A stretch of 21,815 nt of DNA from a virus. The notes beneath the pieces were generated by a model. It did no database searches. It was not told the origin of the DNA and worked only from the letters and a program-made list of their open reading frames with translations. Made by a program: the position numbers and the translations under genes. Positions within the stretch are counted from its first letter, which is position 1, and every line of letters begins with the position of its first letter. Where the stretch lies: positions 1 through 21,815 of IMG/VR virus record IMGVR_UViG_3300045999_003123. One strand, 5' to 3'. Shown here piece after piece: positions 11,549-20,697 of the stretch.

Positions 11549-11744
11549 TGCCTAATAGAGTTTTAATTTGTTCAAGTTCATTTGGTGTCGCATTAAGAAC
11601 AGCTTTTAGTGCTGTTCCGATTTCTTGTGTAGGGTCTTCATAAACCATGTAAACCGAAATGACTTCATCTAATTCATTAAACTCCGTAACAGTCCATGAG
11701 TCGCGCCCATCGCCTTGTAATTTGTATTTATATTCTTTTCTCAT
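11541..11744 (-). CDS. small conserved-looking phage protein, 67 aa (unknown)
   Basis: A 67-residue protein (MRKEYKYKLQGDGRDSWTVT...). The first half looks like a three-stranded sheet (YKYKLQ, SWTVTEFN, EVISVYMVYED), the second half a helix (TALKAVLNATPNELEQIKTLL). It overlaps the preceding large gene by four bases (ATGA) and the following gp10-like gene by eight, so it is firmly within the operon. No family is recognised. Small proteins at this site in phage neck modules can be head-tail joining or chaperone components, but nothing in the sequence proves it. Confidence 0.6.
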   Translation of the reverse strand: MRKEYKYKLQGDGRDSWTVTEFNELDEVISVYMVYEDPTQEIGTALKAVLNATPNELEQIKTLLGIV

Positions 11745-14353
11745 GTGCGTTCAAAATAAAGTATAACAGCTAATTGAGCATTGGTTGGATTTGTTGCCCA
11801 AGTTGGAGTTGTCCATTTGATGATGAAAGTATTGCCAACTGCAAGATTCACAGAAAGTCCTGTTACACTATAAGCATTTGCAATGGGTATTGTACCGCCA
11901 AAAATTATGGCATTGCTTAATAGTGTGTCCGTAGTGTTATTTACACGGAAATTCACCGTGGATGCTTCATTGCTTGCGTTTGTTGTAGCATTAGCCGCAT
12001 AAATAATCGCTGCAACTAAGGTGCAATTGAATGGTATGATTGCATCGTATAGCGTAGCATTGGTTGAATTGGTTAATGCTTGCTCACTAAAAAAGTAAGT
12101 TGTACTATCCGCTGGATTAAAACCACCAATAGCCGTTCGGATAGTAAACATATCCTTCTTATTATTTAGCTGCGTTTGAATTGCACTTGTCACGCCGTCT
12201 AAATACCCAAACTCTGTATTGCTTACCGCACCACTTCCGATGTTTGCCGCGTCAATACCTATAGGCATATCACTCGATGCAAGAGATGCGCTAGCTGTAA
12301 CTAATCCTTTGCTATCATAGGTAATCTTAGTAGCCGTTGCGCCCGTTATAGGCGCATTACCTGTTAGCTTACCATAAAACGTTGACCAATCTGCGCTGCT
12401 TAACGCACCACGATTTGTTGCGTCTGCTGTTGGCAGATTAAATGTATGTGTGCTTCCTGCGCTGCTTATTCCAAAATCAGTGCCTGATGTACCTACTGCA
12501 AGGTTTTGAACTTGCGCTGTGATTCCATTGATTGCATTGATGCCTGTGCTAAGTGTAGTTATTACTTGACACAAATGCGAATTTTCAGTATGCAATACCA
12601 AAGTTCGGCCCGATGTAGTAACAAATACACGCAAAGCCAATCTATCGCTTAAAGTCATAACCGTTGCTGGTACTGCAAGGGCTGTGAAATAGGCATCTAT
12701 TACTGTCCCTTGCGTTATGCCTTCAGGCGTTGCAACATCTGTGGCTAAAAGTGTGAATGTGCTGCCACTAACTTTATATAATTCAACATAGAACGAAGGT
12801 GAACCACCACCTGATGAAGCACTAAAATAAAGTTCAAGGTTGAAGTTACCACCCGGCACCAATAGCACATTTGGATCATTAAGGTCCGTAATGAATTGGG
12901 CTATTAATCCGTTGCCTTGTGCATTGGTTCGCGTGAAGTCAGTACCTGCACCAAATACAGCTGTCTTGCTCATTTGGTAGTAGGTGCTGCCACCTATTGT
13001 ACCTTGATTTATTGAGCCGTTTAAGTAGTAGCTAACTGATGAACCACCTCCACCCGTTGTTGGGAAGTTGGCAAGTTGCCCATCGCCTCGCACGTATTGT
13101 GTCGCAAGCCCTGCTCCCGATATTGCAAGTGTGCCTGCCGTAGTAATTGGTGAACCTGTAACACTGAAAGCAGGGGGAACCGTAAGAGCAACCGAAGTAA
13201 CCGAACCACCTGAAGCAGGTGTAACAGCTTCCCAATCGCCTGATGTGGTGTTGTAGCTTAGCACCTGCCCATTCGAAGGTGTGGGTGCGTTTACATCCGC
13301 AAGGTCATCAAGATTCGTTGGTATAAATGGTTTATTGAGAATCTCAGCCACTCCACTCACAGCGTTCCAATCACTATTTACTTGCGCTGCTGGTATAGTG
13401 GGCTTGTTTAAAATCTCAGCTACTCCGCTAACTGCATCCCAATCACTATTAACTTGCGCAGCGGGAATCGTTGGTTTGTTTAGGATTTGATAGTCACCGC
13501 TTGTTGCGTTCCAATCCACAGGAGTTTGACGCAAGCGATAACCAACAGCAACTAATGTCCAATAAGTCGGGTTAGTTGGGTTGATTGCATCATTATTGGC
13601 AATGCATCTGTAAACACTTCCGTTATACCATACCCTGTCACCTATTTGGTAAGGGTTGCCTAATGCAGTTATGTGATTTGCGTTGTATTCGGTACTCACA
13701 TATTCACCACCACCTCCTCCTCCACCTGCTGCATCTATCGTAACGCTTCCATCTCCATTGTCTGTGATGGTTACGTTGGTACCTTCTACTAAGTCAAGGA
13801 TGTTTTGAACTGCGTTATCTACGCCATTGGTGCGAAGTGTCAAGCCGTAACCCGTTCCGCTTCCACCACTTGATGAACCGCCCACTGTCCAAACAGCAGG
13901 TATATCACATGCGCTCCAATCCCAGGGCACTTCGAGTGTCAATGTAAAACCTACTCCGGTAATTGTGTTTTTGTATTCTTCGATGAATGGTTCAAACGTT
14001 GGAATGTTGACCAGCTGCACATCGAAACCGAATAAGTCCAAACCGTTGCGCACTTCAGCTATCAAATCCTGTCCTAAACGGATGCAATCGCTAATTACTT
14101 CGCGCTGGTATTCTGCTTTGTATTCTTTGTCACGTGGGATGTCTGCGAACATGACTAAGAAACCGAACTGCATACCACCCTGAATCGGAGTAATCGTGTC
14201 AGGTGTTACGTGCATGAATGGATATTGATCGTCTTGCAGTTGGTCTGCAAGGTCAATCTGCCCATGTGTGAATCGCTTAATCAAAAAGTGACCAGCAGCA
14301 AAAGCTTCAAGTCGATTGATAAGTACATTATAGCTGTAATTGTAGCTAGTCAT
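11741..14353 (-). CDS. tail-terminator-like domain fused to fibre/adhesin, 870 aa
   Basis: A composite protein. Residues 1-150 (MTSYNYSYNVLINRLEAFAA..., ending LTLTLEVPWDWSACDIPA) look like the compact alpha/beta fold of phage tail terminators or neck completion proteins, with a QYPFMHVTPD strand. A Gly/Ser linker (158-170) and a Gly7 run (210-216) separate later domains. Residues 218-268 resemble a small carbohydrate-binding module: PYQIGDRVWYNGSVYRC followed by NPTNPTYWTLV. Residues 280-350 are three 24-residue repeats. After 380 the protein is Ser/Thr/Gly-rich beta fibre with NRGALSSADWSTFYGK and FGYLDGVTSAIQTQLNNK, phrases common in fibre proteins. Its ATG overlaps the stop of the -1-frame chaperone extension (TAATG). 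The fusion suggests a fibre anchored at the neck; that role is inference, while the domain layout is seen directly. Confidence 0.68.
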   Translation of the reverse strand: MTSYNYSYNVLINRLEAFAAGHFLIKRFTHGQIDLADQLQDDQYPFMHVTPDTITPIQGGMQFGFLVMFADIPRDKEYKAEYQREVISDCIRLGQDLIAEVRNGLDLFGFDVQLVNIPTFEPFIEEYKNTITGVGFTLTLEVPWDWSACDIPAVWTVGGSSSGGSGTGYGLTLRTNGVDNAVQNILDLVEGTNVTITDNGDGSVTIDAAGGGGGGGEYVSTEYNANHITALGNPYQIGDRVWYNGSVYRCIANNDAINPTNPTYWTLVAVGYRLRQTPVDWNATSGDYQILNKPTIPAAQVNSDWDAVSGVAEILNKPTIPAAQVNSDWNAVSGVAEILNKPFIPTNLDDLADVNAPTPSNGQVLSYNTTSGDWEAVTPASGGSVTSVALTVPPAFSVTGSPITTAGTLAISGAGLATQYVRGDGQLANFPTTGGGGSSVSYYLNGSINQGTIGGSTYYQMSKTAVFGAGTDFTRTNAQGNGLIAQFITDLNDPNVLLVPGGNFNLELYFSASSGGGSPSFYVELYKVSGSTFTLLATDVATPEGITQGTVIDAYFTALAVPATVMTLSDRLALRVFVTTSGRTLVLHTENSHLCQVITTLSTGINAINGITAQVQNLAVGTSGTDFGISSAGSTHTFNLPTADATNRGALSSADWSTFYGKLTGNAPITGATATKITYDSKGLVTASASLASSDMPIGIDAANIGSGAVSNTEFGYLDGVTSAIQTQLNNKKDMFTIRTAIGGFNPADSTTYFFSEQALTNSTNATLYDAIIPFNCTLVAAIIYAANATTNASNEASTVNFRVNNTTDTLLSNAIIFGGTIPIANAYSVTGLSVNLAVGNTFIIKWTTPTWATNPTNAQLAVILYFERT
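13304..13516 (-). repeat. three tandem 72-base coding repeats in the fibre gene
   Basis: Units of 24 residues start at residues 280, 304 and 328. The shared core is DWxAxSGxxxILNKPxIP, with AAQVNS closing the first two. The DNA copies differ at many third codon positions while the protein stays nearly identical, so the repeat is old and held at protein level. Confidence 0.8.
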
Positions 14354-14622
14354 TATCTATTGCGTTTTTTCATTTCCATTTTCTGCACATACACGTAATC
14401 TGCTAAGTACGTTAAGTGCGTGAACACTTCATAACATCTGCGCTCTGTCACTGCATCAAACTTCGTTATGTCCCGGTCAGCTAGTGATTCAATAATATGA
14501 AACCAACCGTACACACCTAATCCGTCAGGGGTTGCTGTTCCTTCATCTCCTTCACTATCTCCGTTATCTCCTTTGCCAAATAAACGAGGGAATCGTTGTA
14601 TAGTTCGATTTCTAAACTCGAA
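14353..14622 (-). CDS. -1 frameshift extension of the tail assembly chaperone (gpGT-like)
   Basis: Continuing leftward from the slippery run in the -1 frame gives 89 sense codons and a TAA at 14355-14353 that overlaps the next ATG. The frame has no ATG until its last few codons, so it needs frameshifting to be made. The product would be 255 residues: 166 shared with the 200-residue protein, then FEFRNRTIQRFPRLFGKGDN, an acidic Gly/Asp/Glu linker, and a helical end with YGWFHIIESLADRDITKFDA and RCYEVFTHLTYLADYVYVQK. The motif W-x-x-I-x-x-L-A-x-x-D-I-x-K-F-D is one I associate with the T domains of such fusions in Bacteroidota phages. In lambda the G and GT pair recruit tape measure and tube subunits. 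Here the tape measure gene is about 8 kb downstream rather than adjacent, which is unusual. Confidence 0.78.
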   Translation of the reverse strand, partial: FEFRNRTIQRFPRLFGKGDNGDSEGDEGTATPDGLGVYGWFHIIESLADRDITKFDAVTERRCYEVFTHLTYLADYVYVQKMEMKKRNR

Positions 14623-15119
14623 AAAAAAAGCAGCGTATTTAACACATGGTCTAAAGTCAATTTGCCTATGGCATCTTCGTACTTACGTTTGCCGTTACTA
14701 TCATAAGCTTCGATGTCGTAATACTTTCCGAACTTAGCTTTGATGGGGCGGTATAGTATGCACATCATTTTGTGAGCAGCTTCGCCCATGATTACACCAT
14801 CTTTATAGATGTCACCGCAAACAGTGTCCATGTCCACGTATTCGCCAAAAGACATTGCACTCAAGTCAGGAATAAAGCCTAATTCGTATGCACCAATGCG
14901 CACTGTGCGTTCAAAGTCACCACTGCTTAACCGAATGGCTGCTTCAAACGTTTCAATGATTTCATCAATTACATGCACCTGAAGCAGGCGAATACTTTCG
15001 CTGCTCTTGCCAGTGATTACATGCACCTGCTCAACCTTATCGACTGCGTTTTGATAGTCGATGTATTGGTTCAGAGTGATGCCTTTCGCGTTAGCTGCTA
15101 TGCTAAAATTTAATTTCAT
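14517..15119 (-). CDS. putative tail assembly chaperone, zero-frame form (gpG-like), 200 aa
   Basis: A 200-residue acidic, helix-rich protein (MKLNFSIAANAKGITLNQYI...) with LNQYIDYQNAVDKVEQ (16-31), DEIIETFEAAIRLSSGDFER and the SMSFGEYVDMDT phrase (about 88-99), typical of tail assembly chaperones that begin with a short strand then a helix bundle. Its last 34 codons follow a run of nine U at 14629-14621; there ribosomes could slip back one base to make the 255-residue fusion. The zero frame ends at TAG (14519-14517), 163 bases before the next gene, and that tail region is open in the other frame, as expected for a G/GT arrangement. The stop at 14517 is thus not the true end of coding. The function is inferred from architecture and the frameshift, not from a database match. 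Confidence 0.68.
   Translation of the reverse strand: MKLNFSIAANAKGITLNQYIDYQNAVDKVEQVHVITGKSSESIRLLQVHVIDEIIETFEAAIRLSSGDFERTVRIGAYELGFIPDLSAMSFGEYVDMDTVCGDIYKDGVIMGEAAHKMMCILYRPIKAKFGKYYDIEAYDSNGKRKYEDAIGKLTLDHVLNTLLFFSSLEIELYNDSLVYLAKEITEIVKEMKEQQPLTD
14621..14629 (-). promoter_or_regulatory. -1 ribosomal frameshift site (U9 slippery run)
   Basis: On the minus strand, nine U follow CUGC. In the zero frame the codons are CUU UUU UUU UCG, giving the canonical U UUU UUU heptamer. A slip back of one base leads into the 89-codon extension. Codon 166 (14624-14622) is the last zero-frame codon read before the shift. No strong downstream hairpin was established by eye. Confidence 0.75.
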
Positions 15120-15153
15120 GGTCTGTTGTATTGTAGTTTTTGCTTCCTTTTTG

Positions 15154-15444
15154 TTACAAGTCCGAATGCACGTTGATTACTACCGGTGCTTTTTGGTCAC
15201 CAGCTACGGTAACACGTGCTTGTTTGGGTTTGAAGTATTCAAGTACATCCAGCGTAAGTGCTGAAGCCTTAAACTTCAAATCTTCATCGCGTGAATCCAT
15301 GCACTCATTTATAAATTCCGCAACCTTTGGCAATGCTTCAGCTACAAAGGTGCGCCCGAATTCTTCCCATTCAAGTGTCTTCTTATTCAAGCTTCCTAAT
15401 GGTCTACCATTTGGGTTGTTGGTCATTCCTTTTTGTAAGCCCAT
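15154..15444 (-). CDS. DUF5681-type small terminase-like protein
   Basis: A 96-residue protein with the hallmark TNNPNGRPLGSLNKKT near the N-terminus (8-23), the N-P-x-G-R-P-x-G-S-x-N-K signature of the DUF5681 family that often stands as or beside the small terminase subunit. The remainder is a helical stretch (EEFGRTFVAEALPKVAEFIN) and a beta-like C-terminus (RVTVAGDQKAPVVINVHSDL). Small terminases recognise pac or cos DNA for packaging; here the basic loop would be the DNA-binding part. The large subunit is not beside it, which is odd (see findings). Start choice is the first ATG after the previous gene, 24 bases downstream of its stop. The DUF5681 assignment is firm by motif, the terminase role less so. 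Confidence 0.62.
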   Translation of the reverse strand: MGLQKGMTNNPNGRPLGSLNKKTLEWEEFGRTFVAEALPKVAEFINECMDSRDEDLKFKASALTLDVLEYFKPKQARVTVAGDQKAPVVINVHSDL

Positions 15445-15468
15445 ATTTGTTATTTTGATGTTTACAAG

Positions 15469-15609
15469 TTACTTAGTATCATACTGCGCAATGCATACAG
15501 CAATGCGTTGTTGTGCATCAGGGTATTCACTTTGCGTCTTAGCATCACTCATGCAGCGTGCCACGAAATCATTCTTTGATTCTTCTGTTGTTGGTGTTGG
15601 TAGGGGCAT
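15469..15609 (-). CDS. 46-aa phage protein with RC...YPDxxQRxAVC motif
   Basis: The frame from ATG at 15609 codes 46 residues: MPLPTPTTEESKNDFVARCM, then a tail ending AVCIAQYDTK. It carries the pattern F-x-x-R-C-x(10)-Y-P-D-x-x-Q-R-x-A-V-C, which I have seen as a stand-alone short protein in phage genomes and as a C-terminal segment of head proteins. The two Cys (19 and 39) sit in the conserved motif. It starts four bases after the Cys-rich gene and ends 24 bases before the small-terminase-like gene. Function unknown; the motif suggests a virion or head-maturation accessory. Confidence 0.65.
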   Translation of the reverse strand: MPLPTPTTEESKNDFVARCMSDAKTQSEYPDAQQRIAVCIAQYDTK

Positions 15610-15613
15610 GTTA

Positions 15614-16063
15614 TTATGGTTTATCGATTTTTCCTAATTGTCTACGGAATTCTGTAATTAGATCACGTATGCACGATGCGCACCCGGATGGACGTTCGTG
15701 CTTCTTAGTTATTTTGCTGTACCAATAGTAAAGCATCTGCAAGTCTTCGGATTCTATTCTGTTGGCTTTACTTACTTTGCTTATGAAGGTGTCCAGCGCA
15801 GCTATTTCTTCTTCCTTCATGTCCTGGGCAAACCATTTACGTGCTGGGCATGATGCAAAGCGGAATTTAGTCTTTACATCCATGAAGCAGCCGCACAATT
15901 TTATCTTCTCTTTGTAGTAAGTAACATCATTTTCTTCAGCATTGACGTTATTACCTACGATTGGTGTACCGCAAGTGCCAAATGTGCCGTTATAAAACTT
16001 ACATTTTTTGCAAGTATTCAATCTCTCGCGTTGAATGTGCGATGGAACGTTGAAGTTTAACAT
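15614..16063 (-). CDS. Cys-rich, probably zinc-binding phage protein, 149 aa
   Basis: A 149-residue protein with two cysteine clusters. Cluster one: CKKC at 18-21, then C31, LCGC with C57 and C59, and C72 in SCPARKW. Cluster two: C128 and C131 (GCASC) near the end. CxxC pairs spaced like this are usual for zinc ribbons. The pattern ERLNTCKKCKFYNG, then CGCFMD and KTKF...SCPARKW is familiar from Bacteroidota phage genes upstream of the packaging genes. The start at 16063 overlaps the sigma-like gene by 65 bases and keeps the first cluster, so I accept it; the first ATG is two codons before the conserved part. A role in late gene control together with the sigma-like protein is possible but not shown. 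Confidence 0.62.
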   Translation of the reverse strand: MLNFNVPSHIQRERLNTCKKCKFYNGTFGTCGTPIVGNNVNAEENDVTYYKEKIKLCGCFMDVKTKFRFASCPARKWFAQDMKEEEIAALDTFISKVSKANRIESEDLQMLYYWYSKITKKHERPSGCASCIRDLITEFRRQLGKIDKP

Positions 16064-16448
16064 ATTCTCTTATTCGTTTTAATGCTCTGTGTATTGATGT
16101 GCGCAGGTAGCTGTATGGAATACCTGTTTCTGCGCTCAATTCTTTGTAGTCGAAATCGGGTTTACTGTATAGACGCAAAAGGATTGCATCAAATTCATTC
16201 AAACGTCCTATTGCGTTGTATAAATACTCACCATCTATGAATGCACCTATCCATGTTTCGTCCTGTTTGCTATCGTCCACCTGCCTTTCTACGTGTAATT
16301 CGTAGTATTTGCGATACTTGATAGCGTAATCACTTCGTGCGCTGTGCCATGATAGCCACAATGCCCTGTTCACGTATGCTTCTATCTTACCACCGCACAC
16401 TATATCTTCAATATCCTGCTGTGGTCTATCCATCAACCTGGCAAGCAC
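15999..16448 (-). CDS. sigma-70 region 4-like regulator, N-terminus unresolved
   Basis: First gene of the leftward operon. The frame starting with GTG at 16448 gives 149 residues; residues 79-130 read as a sigma region 4 helix-turn-helix (NAIGRLNEFDAILLRLYS, then YKELSAETGIPYSYLRTSIH and RALKRIREYVKLQ). Region 2-like sequence also occurs: EAYVNRALWLSWHSARSD. In the same open frame a further 36 codons upstream (to 16556) read plausibly as the region 2 N-terminus, including HYSAWLDKASRLAHDK and SDLLHEV, before a stop at 16559-16557, but they hold no ATG, GTG or TTG. The true start may be non-standard, or there is an indel in the sequence. The likely job is directing host polymerase to late promoters, or an anti/alternative sigma role; that is inference. 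Confidence 0.6.
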   Translation of the reverse strand: MLARLMDRPQQDIEDIVCGGKIEAYVNRALWLSWHSARSDYAIKYRKYYELHVERQVDDSKQDETWIGAFIDGEYLYNAIGRLNEFDAILLRLYSKPDFDYKELSAETGIPYSYLRTSIHRALKRIREYVKLQRSIAHSTREIEYLQKM

Positions 16449-16607
16449 TTCATGCAGTAGATCACTTCCTTTCTGTTTATCGTGTGCAAGCCTACTAGCC
16501 TTATCCAGCCATGCGCTGTAATGTTTCCCTATATGGATACTTACGCAGTCGATTTGTTAAAATTTAAAAATATCGGTGTAAATACTTCCACTATCCAAAA
16601 AAGCGTG

Positions 16608-16615
16608 TACATTTG
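16608..16615 (+). promoter_or_regulatory. candidate -7 box of the rightward early promoter
   Basis: TACATTTG fits TAnnTTTG. It lies 33 bases before the first plus-strand gene. No TTTG is found 19-20 bases upstream, so the promoter may need an activator or be weak. Confidence 0.45.
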
Positions 16616-16622
16616 TACCCGT

Positions 16623-16630
16623 CAAAGATA
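16623..16630 (-). promoter_or_regulatory. candidate -7 box of the leftward late promoter
   Basis: On the minus strand TATCTTTG fits TAnnTTTG exactly, and is identical to the box of the promoter at 18866-18873. It faces, and is separated by seven bases from, the rightward box at 16608-16615. No TTTG at the expected upstream spacing is visible. The divergent gap 16449-16647 is AT-rich and contains nothing else I could name apart from the sigma-like gene's possible N-terminus. Confidence 0.35.
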
Positions 16631-16647
16631 ATCAAAAACAAAACAAC

Positions 16648-16905
16648 ATGAGCTATTTCACTTTTGAACACGACTGCAGCAATGCACCTATCACACTCAC
16701 TATTGAAGTTGAGTACGTAATCACATTCTCTAGAGGCGATTATTACACGCCTGAAGAAACAACTATTGATCAGTGTAAATACACACTGCTTTGCGCTGGC
16801 ATTGACATGACTAAGTGCATCATGAATAGCAATAATAAAAAGTTAATCGGTGAAATAGAAGATGCAGTGACTGCAGCTATTTGGCAAGATGACGAAAATC
16901 AGTAA
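16648..16905 (+). CDS. unknown early phage protein, 85 aa
   Basis: First plus-strand gene of the right arm. 85 residues (MSYFTFEHDCSNAPITLTIE...) beginning with a beta hairpin-like stretch, followed by a helix-prone region and a C-terminal helix (LIGEIEDAVTAAIWQDDENQ). It has three Cys (residues 10, 43, 49 by count) but no metal-binding spacing. No family is recognised. Its position as the first gene after the putative rightward promoter makes it an early product; small early phage genes often modify the host, but no specific clue is seen. Confidence 0.55.
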   Translation: MSYFTFEHDCSNAPITLTIEVEYVITFSRGDYYTPEETTIDQCKYTLLCAGIDMTKCIMNSNNKKLIGEIEDAVTAAIWQDDENQ

Positions 16906-16926
16906 ACAATTTAAAACCTCAATACA

Positions 16927-17256
16927 ATGTTAATCGAAGTAACACACACAGCACCGGTAAGAATAGGTACTACCAAAGTAACACTGCCACACTACTACAT
17001 TGATGGCGACTATACCAAATTTTATTGCTGCATCACTGCAGATTTAAAGCTTATCACAGTTTACCATAACGCATATAGCTGCAACATTGAAACAAAATGC
17101 TACGAAGATGAGCAGGATGTAGCCTTCCGTTTAGAACGTGACATGCGCGATAAGCTTTACGAGCCAATCGATGAAGCAGTGTTCATGCATAAGTTCAGCG
17201 AAGCGCACCGCGAAATCTTCTACGTAGCTAATCCAAAATTAAAACCAATCGAATGA
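16927..17256 (+). CDS. unknown early phage protein, 109 aa
   Basis: A 109-residue protein (MLIEVTHTAPVRIGTTKVTL...) starting 21 bases after the previous stop. Two-thirds is beta-like (HYYIDGDYTKFYCCITADLK, LITVYHNAYS) and the C-terminal third is helical with acidic runs (RLERDMRDKLYEPIDEAVFM). Its stop overlaps the next start by four bases (ATGA). Not recognised. It is coded like its neighbours with no obvious difference in codon use by eye. Confidence 0.55.
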   Translation: MLIEVTHTAPVRIGTTKVTLPHYYIDGDYTKFYCCITADLKLITVYHNAYSCNIETKCYEDEQDVAFRLERDMRDKLYEPIDEAVFMHKFSEAHREIFYVANPKLKPIE

Positions 17257-17489
17257 GAAAGCGACAGGAATTGAATCAACTGATTGCACGCACAGTAGGG
17301 AGCAAAGCTGCTCTCCTACGTGCGATGCAAAGAAGCAACACGCCCATAGTAAAAAAGACTTTGCATAATTGGTGTGATGATCCGGGCAGCATCAAGTTAC
17401 GCCAGCTGATAAACCTTAGCCGGGTAATGGAAGTGCCAGTGTGCGAGATAGTCGATTGTATAACCATTAAAAACGAAGGCGATGAGTAA
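17253..17489 (+). CDS. Cro/XRE-like helix-turn-helix regulator, 78 aa
   Basis: A 78-residue basic protein. Residues about 6-60 form the helix-turn-helix core: LNQLIARTVGSKAALLRAMQ, then RSNTPIVKKTLHNWCDDPGS (recognition helix region) and IKLRQLINLSRVMEVPVCEI. The arrangement of five short helices with VPVCEIVDC at the end matches phage Cro and XRE-type repressors, and the sequence around KTLHNW resembles the DNA-contacting helix. It starts in the ATGA overlap with the upstream gene and ends eight bases inside the next. The most likely job is repression or activation of phage early promoters. A strong hairpin lies 36 bases into this coding region. Confidence 0.68.
   Translation: MRKRQELNQLIARTVGSKAALLRAMQRSNTPIVKKTLHNWCDDPGSIKLRQLINLSRVMEVPVCEIVDCITIKNEGDE
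17289..17324 (+). other. hairpin inside the Cro/XRE-like gene
   Basis: CGCAC (17289-17293) pairs with GTGCG (17320-17324), and GTAGGGAGC (17295-17303) with GCTC plus CCTAC (17310-17319), with one bulged A, one bulged T and a six-base loop AAAGCT. That gives 14 pairs, well above what adjoining coding sequence shows by eye. It could affect translation of the gene or be an operator. Confidence 0.45.
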
Positions 17490-18075
17490 ATATAAAGCAT
17501 ATATAAAGACTCAAGGCAAGAAGCTGCGCACTACTAAGCTACCAACACGCAGTGATATCCTTACTATCATGAAGAAGTTTGATAAAGTAAGCTTTGCTGA
17601 TTTGCGAAAGGAGCTAAACATAAGCAATGCTAAGTTGATGGATTGGTGTAAGCTGGTATTCAGCACAGATGATAAGGAGAAAAGGTGGCGCGAAATCGAG
17701 GACAATCTAAACAACCTTGAATTTCATGAGAACTTTACTGATTCGATGGAGAGTGAATACGATGTGCATGATGTGCGCAGGGTAAATGACAAGAACATGT
17801 ACATCGTAAAGAAGAAAGTAGTCAATGAAAATCGCATGTGCTATCTTGTTACGATTAACCATGACCAGCACGTCATAGTTCGCTTTGATATTCCCGTAGA
17901 ACGTAGCAGTGTGCAATACTGCCCAATCACATTAGGTTGTGATTATCAGGTAAATTCACTCGGTCAGTGGGAGTATATGGAACTAGAATCACATCTACCT
18001 GTCATAAACATTCAGGCGGATGAAGACTACATCGGGAAGTTTTGGTTAGCAATATCTAATTCCCTGAATGCATGA
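17482..18075 (+). CDS. unknown early phage protein, 197 aa, N-terminal HTH-like
   Basis: A 197-residue protein (MSKYKAYIKTQGKKLRTTKL...). The first 25 residues are basic and disordered-like. Residues about 24-58 (DILTIMKKFDKVSFADLRKE, then LNISNAKLMDWCKLVF) could be a helix-turn-helix, with ISNAKLMDW as the recognition helix. The middle is charged (KRWREIEDNLNNLEFHENFT) and the C-terminal half (about 95-197) is beta-rich. It overlaps the Cro-like gene by eight bases and the VRR-NUC gene by four (ATGA). No family recognised. A regulator or a replication accessory factor fits its location. Confidence 0.55.
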   Translation: MSKYKAYIKTQGKKLRTTKLPTRSDILTIMKKFDKVSFADLRKELNISNAKLMDWCKLVFSTDDKEKRWREIEDNLNNLEFHENFTDSMESEYDVHDVRRVNDKNMYIVKKKVVNENRMCYLVTINHDQHVIVRFDIPVERSSVQYCPITLGCDYQVNSLGQWEYMELESHLPVINIQADEDYIGKFWLAISNSLNA

Positions 18076-18434
18076 AGCACGAAGAAAGCAAGATTCAGCA
18101 ACGTTGCGTAGAATGGTTCCGCTATTCCTTCCCTCGCACACTAATCGCTTCCTTCCCCAATGGTGTGTTTATAGGTGGCACTCCGGTACAAAGAGCAAAA
18201 CGCTGGAACATATTGAAAGCAGAAGGGGCTATGCCCGGTATGCCTGATTTGATGATCTGTATGAGCAGTGGTTCATACCATGCCCTGTTCATCGAGATGA
18301 AGACCGAGAAGGGCAAACTATCCGACACACAAAAAATCGTTCACGCACAGCTTATCAATGCAGGTTACTGCGTAAAGGTGTGCAGGTCATTTGAAGAATT
18401 TACAATCATAATTAAAACCTATTTAGAGCAATGA
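18072..18434 (+). CDS. VRR-NUC family nuclease, 120 aa
   Basis: A compact nuclease of the VRR-NUC fold (PD-(D/E)XK superfamily), as found in phages and restriction-like contexts. Seen: helix with E4 and Q9 (MKHEESKIQQRCVEWFRY), FPNGVFIGG (28-36), then the catalytic set: G-M-P-D59 in EGAMPGMPDLMI (51-62), E75-x-K77 in ALFIEMK (71-77) and Q87 in GKLSDTQKIV (81-90). All key residues are present, so the protein is likely active. The length is normal for phage members. In the host it would cut flap or Holliday-type DNA during phage replication; that is family-based inference. It shares four bases with both neighbours. Confidence 0.8.
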   Translation: MKHEESKIQQRCVEWFRYSFPRTLIASFPNGVFIGGTPVQRAKRWNILKAEGAMPGMPDLMICMSSGSYHALFIEMKTEKGKLSDTQKIVHAQLINAGYCVKVCRSFEEFTIIIKTYLEQ

Positions 18435-18853
18435 GAAAAAACACAAAAAGCAAGTATTACGAATTCATGTGTGCATTACATGCCATGCAAGAATTTGATA
18501 TCAAACAAATGCGCAATGAATATCGTGTTGGTGCGCGATTGATTACGCTGATGCGCGAACACAACATGATTAAACGCGAAGGCAATGTAACACGCTGGAT
18601 AGGCGATAAGCCTACGCAAGCAATAGCTGTTGCATTTGCTAAAGAATGTTTGAAGGAATCACGTATTGCCAATGCACAAAGCAAAGCAGGTACGCAGCAG
18701 CTAACTATCAAACCCATCAAACGTGTTGAGCGCATACAGCCAGCACCGGTGCATGAAGAACCTATCTGCGATAACAGCAATAGCAAGATGCTATTGATCA
18801 TGGCTGTTGGTGCCGTAATCGGATTCATGATTGCAACAGCAATTTGGAAGTAG
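18431..18853 (+). CDS. unknown protein with C-terminal membrane anchor, 140 aa
   Basis: A 140-residue protein (MRKNTKSKYYEFMCALHAMQ...). The N-terminal 60 residues look like a winged-helix-type DNA-binding domain (FDIKQMRNEYRVGARLITLM, then REHNMIKREGNVTRWIGDKP). A Lys/Gln/Pro-rich linker follows. Residues about 119-138 (MLLIMAVGAVIGFMIATAIW) form one transmembrane helix with only a short tail, so the protein is C-terminally anchored. It overlaps the VRR-NUC gene by four bases. Not recognised; the combination of a possible DNA-binding head and a tail anchor may tether DNA or a replication complex to the membrane. This is inference. Confidence 0.58.
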   Translation: MRKNTKSKYYEFMCALHAMQEFDIKQMRNEYRVGARLITLMREHNMIKREGNVTRWIGDKPTQAIAVAFAKECLKESRIANAQSKAGTQQLTIKPIKRVERIQPAPVHEEPICDNSNSKMLLIMAVGAVIGFMIATAIWK

Positions 18854-18873
18854 AAATATTTTGATTATCTTTG
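18843..18873 (+). promoter_or_regulatory. Bacteroidota-type promoter upstream of the leader RNA
   Basis: TTTG at 18843-18846 and TATCTTTG at 18866-18873 are 19 bases apart, a full match to the -33 and -7 consensus. The expected start site is near 18880, giving a leader of about 100 bases before the GIY-YIG gene. It begins inside the end of the previous gene. Confidence 0.72.
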
Positions 18874-18887
18874 CAACGCTAGTTCGT

Positions 18888-18950
18888 ATGAAAACATTTT
18901 TTAAATCCCATCTTCACTGCATTGCCATAAGCCATTCGGCTACGGACTAG
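18888..18950 (+). CDS. possible 20-aa leader peptide in the structured RNA
   Basis: ATG at 18888 opens MKTFFKSHLHCIAISHSATD and ends in TAG at 18948-18950, inside the structured leader. Translation would run through the 5' arm of the long stem. It could be an attenuation-type leader peptide or a chance short frame; nothing beyond its placement supports it. Confidence 0.25.
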   Translation: MKTFFKSHLHCIAISHSATD

Positions 18951-18975
18951 CCTTTGCATGTGAAGGTGGGTATTT
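18903..18975 (+). ncRNA. structured leader RNA before the GIY-YIG gene
   Basis: CCCATCTTCAC (18907-18917) pairs with GTGAAGGTGGG (18960-18970) in 11 pairs including one G-U wobble, and AAAT (18903-18906) pairs with ATTT (18972-18975) past one bulged U, for 15 pairs in total. An inner TGCA/TGCA helix (18918-18921 with 18955-18958) follows. The apex can form either AGCC-ATTC-GGCT (18930-18941) or GGCTA-CGGAC-TAGCC (18938-18952); these share GGCT, so they exclude each other. That is what a switch or a pseudoknotted RNA would look like. Family unknown to me; function not assigned. Confidence 0.6.
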
Positions 18976-18981
18976 AGTTTT

Positions 18982-19272
18982 ATGTTTTATTTAAAAGATT
19001 CATGGTATACACCCAATACCTACGATAGAAACTTCGCTTATCCTTCAAACAAGGAAGGAGTTTATGTAATTGTCGAACCTACGTTGGGCATTTTATACGT
19101 TGGTAGTTCTATAAATTTATGGCAGCGTTACAATAGGCATGAAGTATTACGTTTATTGAATGCAACTTATGGTTATGTTCAGTTTTATTTTACAGAATGT
19201 ACAAACTCAAAAAAGTTTGAAAAACATTTGATTAAAACTTTACAGCCGAAATACAACACACAGCACAAATGA
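18982..19272 (+). CDS. single-domain GIY-YIG endonuclease-like protein, 96 aa
   Basis: A minimal GIY-YIG domain. GVYVI (26-30) and LYVG (38-41) form the GIY and YIG parts; R49 in INLWQRYNRH is the usual catalytic Arg; E80 in SKKFEKHLIKTL is the usual metal-binding Glu; N92 in PKYN is also conserved. No DNA-binding domain is attached, so the specificity must come from another factor or from structure. The gene follows the structured leader by six bases and shares four bases with the replication gene. Members of this superfamily include intron-encoded homing enzymes, UvrC-like repair nucleases and restriction enzymes; which one applies is undecided, and the protein lacks the C-terminal parts of the first two. 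Confidence 0.78.
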   Translation: MFYLKDSWYTPNTYDRNFAYPSNKEGVYVIVEPTLGILYVGSSINLWQRYNRHEVLRLLNATYGYVQFYFTECTNSKKFEKHLIKTLQPKYNTQHK

Positions 19273-20132
19273 AAAATAACGGTTACGACCTTTCCCGGAA
19301 GTGGTTTGACTTTGCCTTTGAGCATTCGGAAGTTAAGTGCCAGCACACTGCTTTGTTCATGTGGATCATTGAACTAAACAATCGACTTGGATGGAAAGAG
19401 CAGTTTGGAATACCAACGAACGCAACAATGGAAGGGTTGCACATTGGTAACAAGCGCACCTACTTGGATGCACTTAGCGACTTAGCTAAATGGAATTTCA
19501 TTCAAATTATCAGTGAATCTAAGAACCAGTATAGCAGCACAATAATATCAATATGCCGTAGCAAAAAAGCCACAGCACTGCATACGGCATTAGATACGGC
19601 ATTGATACAGCACAGCAACGGCATTGAACACAGCATTGAACACAGCAGTGCCCCCATAGATAAACCAAGAAACCAAGAAACCAATAAACAAAGAAACAAT
19701 GATATAGGGCTTAACAGCCCCGAATCACAGAATGAAATTATAGTTGAAGATGCAAATGAAAAAAAAGTAACGCGCAAACGATTCGTTAAACCGGAAGAAC
19801 ATGAAGTGTACAACTTGATGGGCGAACTGAATGCGACAGGTAAAAACTTTATGAGCGAAGATAGATTAGTTAATTTCGCTCGCACCTTCATGGATCACTA
19901 CGAAGCTAATGGCTGGATAGTAGGTAAATCTTCAATGAAGGATTGGCAAAGCACAGTGCGCAACTGGATGCGCAGAGAATGGGATAAAATTAAAAATCAA
20001 AAATCATATGGCAAACAATCAAATTCAACAGCAGACAGCATTGCAAAAGCTAATGCACTTTACGCCGAAGCAGTCGCTATCAGTCGAGCACGCGATAACA
20101 CAAGACCAGATTGGTCTCCTTCGGAAGCTTGA
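19269..20132 (+). CDS. replication initiator-like protein containing the putative origin
   Basis: A 287-residue protein. Residues about 1-100 resemble the winged-helix start of phage replication initiators (MKNNGYDLSRKWFDFAFEHS, then KCQHTALFMWIIELNNRLGW and NKRTYLDALSDLAKWNFIQI). Residues 102-127 are low-complexity and coded by DNA repeats. An acidic/basic linker follows and residues about 165-240 carry a DnaD-like helical segment (EHEVYNLMGELNATGKNFMS, then FARTFMDHYEANGWIVGKSS, MKDWQSTVRNWMRREWDKIK), which loads helicase at the origin in related systems. Its end overlaps the next gene by 125 bases. Start overlaps the GIY-YIG stop (ATGA). As with lambda O, the origin would lie within the gene; this is inferred from repeats, not tested. 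Confidence 0.68.
   Translation: MKNNGYDLSRKWFDFAFEHSEVKCQHTALFMWIIELNNRLGWKEQFGIPTNATMEGLHIGNKRTYLDALSDLAKWNFIQIISESKNQYSSTIISICRSKKATALHTALDTALIQHSNGIEHSIEHSSAPIDKPRNQETNKQRNNDIGLNSPESQNEIIVEDANEKKVTRKRFVKPEEHEVYNLMGELNATGKNFMSEDRLVNFARTFMDHYEANGWIVGKSSMKDWQSTVRNWMRREWDKIKNQKSYGKQSNSTADSIAKANALYAEAVAISRARDNTRPDWSPSEA
19572..19649 (+). repeat. seven iteron-like repeats
   Basis: Core ACRGCAYT-like octamers start at 19572, 19584, 19596, 19607, 19618, 19630 and 19642, so spacing is 12, 12, 11, 11, 12, 12 bases. Five of the seven match ACRGCA(T/C)T; those at 19607 (ACAGCACA) and 19642 (ACAGCAGT) differ at the end. Because of the 11-base steps the repeats fall into all three reading frames, so the protein does not explain them. 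Confidence 0.78.
19572..19701 (+). other. putative phage replication origin
   Basis: The iteron array (19572-19649) is followed by five tandem eight-base units (19662-19701): AAACCAAG, AAACCAAG, AAACCAAT, AAACAAAG, AAACAATG. These are A-rich, strongly strand-asymmetric and have a period of eight that does not respect codons. Iterons plus an A-rich stretch within the initiator gene is the lambda-type layout, where the initiator binds the iterons and the A-rich part melts. Confidence 0.68.
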
Positions 20133-20697
20133 TAAAGAAACAACCAAAGACAAAATCATGCAGCTGGTTACACGATGTACTCAACTGATGAATGTGCAGA
20201 ACAACATGAACGCTATGCAGATTGAGTTTTGTGCTGAACAGATTATGCAACAGAAATATTTTTACTCACTTGAAGATGTGCAGATATGTTTAGATCGTGG
20301 AGCTATTGGTGCATATGGAACAATATACAACCGCATCGACCCGGCAACTGTGCTTGCATGGTTTCCACTTTATGACCAAGAAAGGCAAGTAGTTGTAAGG
20401 GCAAAGAAAACCGCTGAACAAGAAGCCAACAACATCTACGAAATGTTTCAGCATCCGCAAATCATGGATGCGATGCAACAGGCAGCAGATAAGTTGAAGA
20501 TTAAAGAAGAACCAGTGCGCGAAGTGAAAAGGGAAAATCCACCACCACTTGAGATTGCACTGATGCGCGAATACGATGCGCTGCCGCAATGGGATAACGA
20601 CATGCGCTTTCGCGTGTACAAAAACAAGCCGTATCAGTTTACTGAATACAGGCAGGAACGTTACAGGGAATTAATCGAAACGCAAAATGAATACTGA
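20008..20697 (+). CDS. DUF6633-like phage protein, 229 aa
   Basis: A 229-residue protein with a feature pattern I associate with DUF6633-type proteins of Bacteroidota phages: an N-terminal part SVEHAITQDQIGLLRKLDKE (25-44), helix LVTRCTQLMNVQ, AEQIMQQKYFYSLEDVQICL and RGAIGAYGTIYNRIDPATVL followed by AWFPLYDQERQ. The rest is a charged linker with QRQER-type runs. The ATG at 20008 gives a 125-base overlap with the replication gene in another frame; a later ATG at 20158 would avoid it but cut off the N-terminal pattern, so I keep 20008. Likely part of the replication module, perhaps a helicase-loader partner; inference. Confidence 0.62.
   Translation: MANNQIQQQTALQKLMHFTPKQSLSVEHAITQDQIGLLRKLDKETTKDKIMQLVTRCTQLMNVQNNMNAMQIEFCAEQIMQQKYFYSLEDVQICLDRGAIGAYGTIYNRIDPATVLAWFPLYDQERQVVVRAKKTAEQEANNIYEMFQHPQIMDAMQQAADKLKIKEEPVREVKRENPPPLEIALMREYDALPQWDNDMRFRVYKNKPYQFTEYRQERYRELIETQNEY

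Follow-up and report, generated by a model that had tools for sequence, protein, structure and literature searches.

The origin of phage lambda lies within the initiator gene O, where iterons, each about 18 bp long and built of inverted halves, occur in 4-6 copies (their number varying between relatives) and share the middle of the gene with an AT-rich tract, ahead of a gene in the helicase-loader position (PMC7466680). In the pSK41-type RepA_N initiators, an N-terminal winged helix binds Rep boxes located centrally in the rep gene; this central part encodes the linker of the protein, and the origin-encoded linker is dispensable as protein (PMC5703833). In the chimeric initiator of pPR9, the N-domain and the origin have been exchanged, and the C-domain is still >97% identical (PMC5703833). 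Additionally, the PLE of Vibrio cholerae, a mobile element, encodes RepA, an iteron-binding initiator with a winged helix (PMC7145576). A literature search, with subscription papers mostly outside its reach, returned no paper describing an initiator-gene origin of the phages considered here.

The DNA analyzed here, referred to as the window, is an entire IMG/VR virus record of 21,815 bp. The virus probably infects Bacteroidota, a host suggested by the type of its promoter and by its relative, the Polaribacter phage Danklef. The layout of its initiator gene resembles that of lambda in that iterons and an A-rich tract lie in the middle of the gene, before a gene in the position of a helicase loader, and in that the copy number of the iterons varies between relatives. 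In contrast to those of lambda, the iterons of this group are about 9 bp long, non-palindromic, 11-12 bp apart and mostly present in 6-7 copies, and those of the window are not built of inverted halves. The term "lambda-like", proposed in an earlier sequence-only reading of this DNA, thus suits the layout but not the short, non-palindromic iteron sequence. The pSK41-type plasmids share the central repeats and linker behind an N-terminal winged helix (predicted here), and the cassette exchange described below has a close counterpart in pPR9. However, the window protein does not match the RepA_N profile (PF06970), the match in fold is unspecific, the C-domain has no shown relation to that family, and the host phylum is a different one. 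The solved N-domain of PLE RepA (4ro3) is among the structural matches to the phage N-domain, whereas the PLE iterons sit in a non-coding region (PMC7145576) and the phage array sits in a gene.

For comparison, a protein search yielded 80 loci in viral contigs (L numbers below denote individual loci), and searches with an alignment of the N-domain added more distant ones. Removal of near-copies left 79 representatives with the N-domain type of the window, and the repeats were analyzed in 78 of them.

Iterons and A-rich units in the initiator gene

The seven iterons (Table 1) start at 19572, 19584, 19596, 19607, 19618, 19630 and 19642, with spacings of 12, 12, 11, 11, 12 and 12 bp; their phases relative to the gene are 0, 0, 0, 2, 1, 1 and 1, so that all three reading frames are used, exactly as the sequence-only reading had it. 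The sequence ACRGCAYTG, which is not palindromic, is exact in four of the seven and carries one mismatch in the other three, the core ACRGCA being present in all, and an extra ACAGCA at 19612 is out of register with the array. When AC[AG]GCA chains at 11/12-bp spacing are ranked over the window, the four top plus-strand entries all fall in the array (7 copies), the minus-strand maximum is 1, and the chain never exceeds 2 in 2000 triplet shuffles of the window. In synonymous shuffles of the window gene alone, in which the protein is fixed, a chain of seven arises in 0.5%, and a motif-free lag-11/12 score under the same constraint gives p=0.0095. DNA hairpins across the array are no more stable than in shuffles.

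Behind the iterons, AAAC recurs at 19662, 19670, 19678, 19686 and 19694, which bears out the earlier description of five A-rich units of exactly 8 bp. Positions 19652-19712 are 66% AT, compared with 51% in the array, with an A:T count of 32:8 on the plus strand; an A/T-rich tract therefore adjoins the iterons, as in the layout of lambda O and pSK41 rep.

An origin of the DnaA-box kind was not found, as the window contains no DnaA box (TTWTNCACA) on either strand. The cumulative GC skew was considered as a pointer to an origin at the array and rejected, because it turns at 17103, away from the array and near a change in gene orientation. Elsewhere in the window, a tandem repeat of 72 bp in 2.5 copies is present at 13340-13516, inside a long minus-strand ORF (11741-14353).

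Table 1. Positions of the features discussed, numbered along the window.
Feature	Coordinates	Strand	Basis
Putative Bacteroidota-type promoter, TTTG-N19-TATCTTTG	18843..18873	+	Sequence
Leader RNA with pseudoknot, ahead of the initiator operon	18868..18982	+	Fold z -4.7; covariation
GIY-YIG endonuclease-like ORF between leader and initiator	18982..19272	+	Pfam PF01541, E=1.2e-7
Exchangeable cassette: GIY-YIG ORF, N-domain, iterons and A-rich tract	18985..19730		BLASTN against L044
Initiator gene, 287 aa: winged-helix N-domain, repeat-carrying linker, helical C-domain	19269..20132	+	ORF; AlphaFold2 model; PHROGs of relatives
Winged-helix N-domain, residues 1-100	19269..19568	+	Model, pLDDT about 78-96, order H-H-E-H-H-E-E
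Predicted recognition helix, residues 62-74	19452..19490	+	AlphaFold2 model
Iteron array, 7 copies, core ACRGCA	19572..19650	+	Sequence; chain counts; shuffles
Putative strand-opening region: five A-rich units of 8 bp, AAACMAAR-like	19660..19702	+	Sequence; excess in relatives
C-terminal part common to proteins with different N-domains	19731..20132	+	Matches to L042-L049
Downstream ORF, 229 aa, putative helicase-loader position	20008..20697	+	ORF; phrog_35728 (unknown)

The initiator protein and its operon

The N-terminal winged helix that had been proposed from the sequence agrees with the AlphaFold2 model, in which the N-domain is followed by a low-confidence linker (residues 121-168), encoded over most of the array and the A-rich tract, and then by C-terminal helices. 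A structural comparison of the predicted N-domain returns winged-helix chains at Z 8-10, plasmid initiators included; the chains named as initiators or Rep proteins (4pt7, 4pta and 5kbj) score 8.2-8.5, and 4ro3 scores 7.9. Unrelated winged helices score equal to or above these structures, which indicates that the likeness is one of fold and not of family.

The window protein matches no Pfam family at E<=0.1, none meaningfully up to E=10, and no NCBIfam family, and its PHROG matches are to unnamed families only. By contrast, relatives with the same N-domain match families named "replication initiation O-like", "replisome organizer" and "replication initiation protein"; the Danklef relative matches phrog_391 ("replication initiation O-like") at E=1.5e-10, an O-like match that the window protein itself lacks. 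The DnaD-like C-terminal part of the sequence-only reading was not recovered in the window protein: its C-domain has no Pfam match, DnaD and DnaB_2 included. Relatives with the same N-domain do match DnaD-like families, and L135, a member of the same C-domain family, has a weak hit (E=0.005) to phrog_8489 ("DnaD-like helicase loader"). Neither the initiator nor the downstream ORF has a match among solved structures searched by sequence.

Over the 78 loci, the start of the predicted recognition helix (IGNK versus IKSY, IKNW or IKKH) pairs in a nearly perfect split with the type of repeat (ACG/ACA-GCA versus AAA-GCA). Independent covariation of helix and repeat was considered and rejected, as the tree shows a single change, and the split does not count as independent evidence.

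Upstream, the leader RNA is predicted to contain two interleaved helices, P1 (18878-18887 with 18942-18951) and P2 (18903-18921 with 18955-18975), with a small hairpin between. In an alignment of 45 distinct leader sequences, 99.4% of the cells are paired, and both partners have changed in 17 of the 33 pairs. Covariation scores 0.451, whereas shuffles reach 0.185 and sliding never gives more than 0.079. Relatives show a TTTG-rich -7 element ahead of this leader. The leader has no match in Rfam up to E=1. A DNA pattern blind to the protein retrieves 116 readable copies; in 110 of them an initiator ORF lies no more than 2 kb downstream, and in 60 it directly adjoins the copy. P2 ends just before the start codon, which makes control of translation or transcription by the leader likely. 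Scanned generically for pseudoknots, the regions ahead of distant initiators give 31, compared with about 25 expected, barely above shuffles, and the leader RNA is thus claimed for the near group only. In L187, L200, L203 and L127, a hairpin with a T-run lies 12-17 nt before the initiator ATG, together with a possible second interleaved helix, a pattern that the generic scan does not set apart from chance.

The downstream ORF overlaps the initiator gene by 125 bp and is conserved together with the C-domain; it matches no known family, and a fold search gave nothing usable. An SSB-like gene lies close downstream of the initiator.

A winged-helix fold of this kind is common to many transcription regulators, and the Danklef homologue is annotated as one, which would suit an operator through which the protein only represses or times its own operon while replication starts elsewhere. 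However, the array sits well within the gene, 300 bp from its start and distant from the putative promoter, and is followed by an A-rich tract in the relatives examined; the relatives match initiation families rather than repressors, and the nearby SSB-like gene also speaks against an operator, which we regard as improbable.

Exchange of the N-domain and iterons as one cassette

Most of the loci L042-L080 resemble the window in the C-terminal part only, where identity reaches 100%; in L042-L049 the match is restricted to residues 157/161-287, at 98-100%. In the BLASTN alignment of the window with L044, identity is 95.6% over 14355-18984 and 96.3% over 19731-20675, and nothing is aligned between. 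The right breakpoint at 19731 is identical in all type B/B2 loci compared. A single segment is thus replaced between near-identical flanks, which indicates that the N-domain, the iterons and the A-rich tract travel as one unit. Additionally, L039 combines a distant window-type N-domain and AAAGCA repeats with a C-terminal half that is 90% identical in DNA.

Five N-domain types occur on a single C-terminal lineage, and every type brings its own short repeats and A-rich tract. Of the other-type N-domains in L042-L080, the best-scoring one matches DUF1376 below its cut-off. The linker repeats of type B are CCACGGCA at 12 bp, and those of types B2 and C are ACATATG at 11-12 bp, followed by GAAAAT units. 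Statistical support for these repeats is fair in B and B2 and not significant in type C, and the B and C repeats are fewer and individually weak.

The GIY-YIG ORF may promote cassette exchange. It is absent from the same junction in L003, and other small ORFs replace it elsewhere. Breakpoints on either side of the array, and a GIY-YIG ORF within the cassette of the window, would fit an array that drives the exchange as a target of recombination or homing, for instance by this neighboring nuclease; yet L003 and many other loci keep the array without the ORF, and the breakpoints fall not in the array but at the start codon and at 19731, which makes such a target very improbable.

Conservation of the repeats at the DNA level

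The array is present in all but one of the 79 representatives, L123 being the only one among them that lacks repeats at this place. A strict chain of at least 5 is found in 59 of the 78 loci analyzed, and degenerate or short chains only in 15. In L123 (1501-2157), the array has been lost by an in-frame deletion that joins AAAGCAACG to TTTACACC; its protein has a Leu at a Trp that is otherwise invariant in the alignments made, and no other repeat cluster is seen within its 3.3 kb locus. A defective copy or an error of assembly may account for L123.

Summed over the 78 loci, the longest GCA chain at 11/12-bp spacing amounts to 442, compared with 151±8 (maximum 173) in synonymous shuffles. Entropy was calculated for the other three bases of the core, on which detection did not rely; the conservation of GCA is built into the test. 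In the 29 loci with spacing 12,12,11,12,11, the entropy of these three bases is 0.32 bits, compared with 1.03 in the spacers, and 0.34, 0.28 and 0.34 at codon positions 1-3; in the 14 loci with spacing 12,12,11,11,12, the values are 0.39 bits in the cores and 0.70 in the spacers. In these two commonest arrangements, codon position 3 of the cores is no freer than positions 1 and 2, and the spacers drift. The 8-bp A-rich chain is likewise in excess over the relatives (254 versus 134±7 under synonymous shuffles). Taken together, the chain excess, the core entropy and the A-rich excess show that the repeats are kept as DNA whatever they encode, so that selection acts at the DNA level within a coding gene, as the sequence-only reading had supposed in place of protein repeats. 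For the repeats, the single gene provides moderate evidence and the comparison of relatives overwhelming evidence.

Down to about 40% N-domain identity, Danklef included, relatives show the spacing pattern with two 11-bp steps; conserved spacing is what the sequence-only reading had expected of an alignment of relatives. The drift of the linker fits the dispensability of the pSK41 linker as protein. The notion of a low-complexity linker made by slippage and kept for protein flexibility, with meaningless DNA repeats, finds some footing in the low-confidence, probably disordered linker and in the gain and loss of tandem copies between relatives, but it is rejected, as the repeats spread over three reading frames, the cores are conserved at codon position 3 while the spacers drift, synonymous shuffles destroy the chain, and the spacing is kept across about 40% identity.

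Cousin genes in cellular genomes (L251, L258, L259, L263 and L266), which are weak relatives whose phylum was reached through a Flavobacteriales MAG, carry, as judged by eye, different linker repeats, often with A-rich stretches behind them; some of these repeats are palindromic, such as CTGTCCCAANNNTGGGACA in L251.

A probable replication origin within the gene of its initiator

The repeats lie between the predicted DNA-binding domain and the C-domain, are selected as DNA and are inherited together with the N-domain. On these grounds, and with the initiation-family matches of relatives and the nearby SSB-like gene, the array very probably functions as the phage replication origin inside the gene of its own initiator, as the sequence-only reading had proposed; a probability of roughly 0.87 is assigned to this reading. 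We infer binding, strand opening, helicase loading and the start of replication at the array by analogy with the intragenic origins described above. The winged-helix N-domain would bind the seven iterons at their 11/12-bp spacing, and its loading would strain the flanking A-rich tract until the strands open. The C-domain, tethered by a flexible linker whose coding sequence is the origin, would then recruit the host helicase machinery, perhaps assisted by the product of the overlapping next gene.

An origin inside an initiator gene is of a known kind; what is added here is the phage group, the short period of the iterons and the extent of natural cassette exchange. The leader RNA may be a newer finding than the origin. 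More tentatively, and at slightly under even odds, the locus may be viewed as a self-contained module of phages probably of Bacteroidota, in which an exchangeable cassette for initiator specificity and origin is combined with an undescribed pseudoknotted leader that limits initiator synthesis, and in which origin, initiator and copy control evolve separably.

With five or more types of N-domain joined to a single C-domain lineage, and dozens of natural variants of one type, the family forms a data set for how winged helices read iterons, and it is suited to testing whether a joint swap of domain and origin alters replication compatibility. The family likewise supplies candidate replication origins for a large number of uncultured phage genomes and points toward small replicons for Flavobacteria and their kin.
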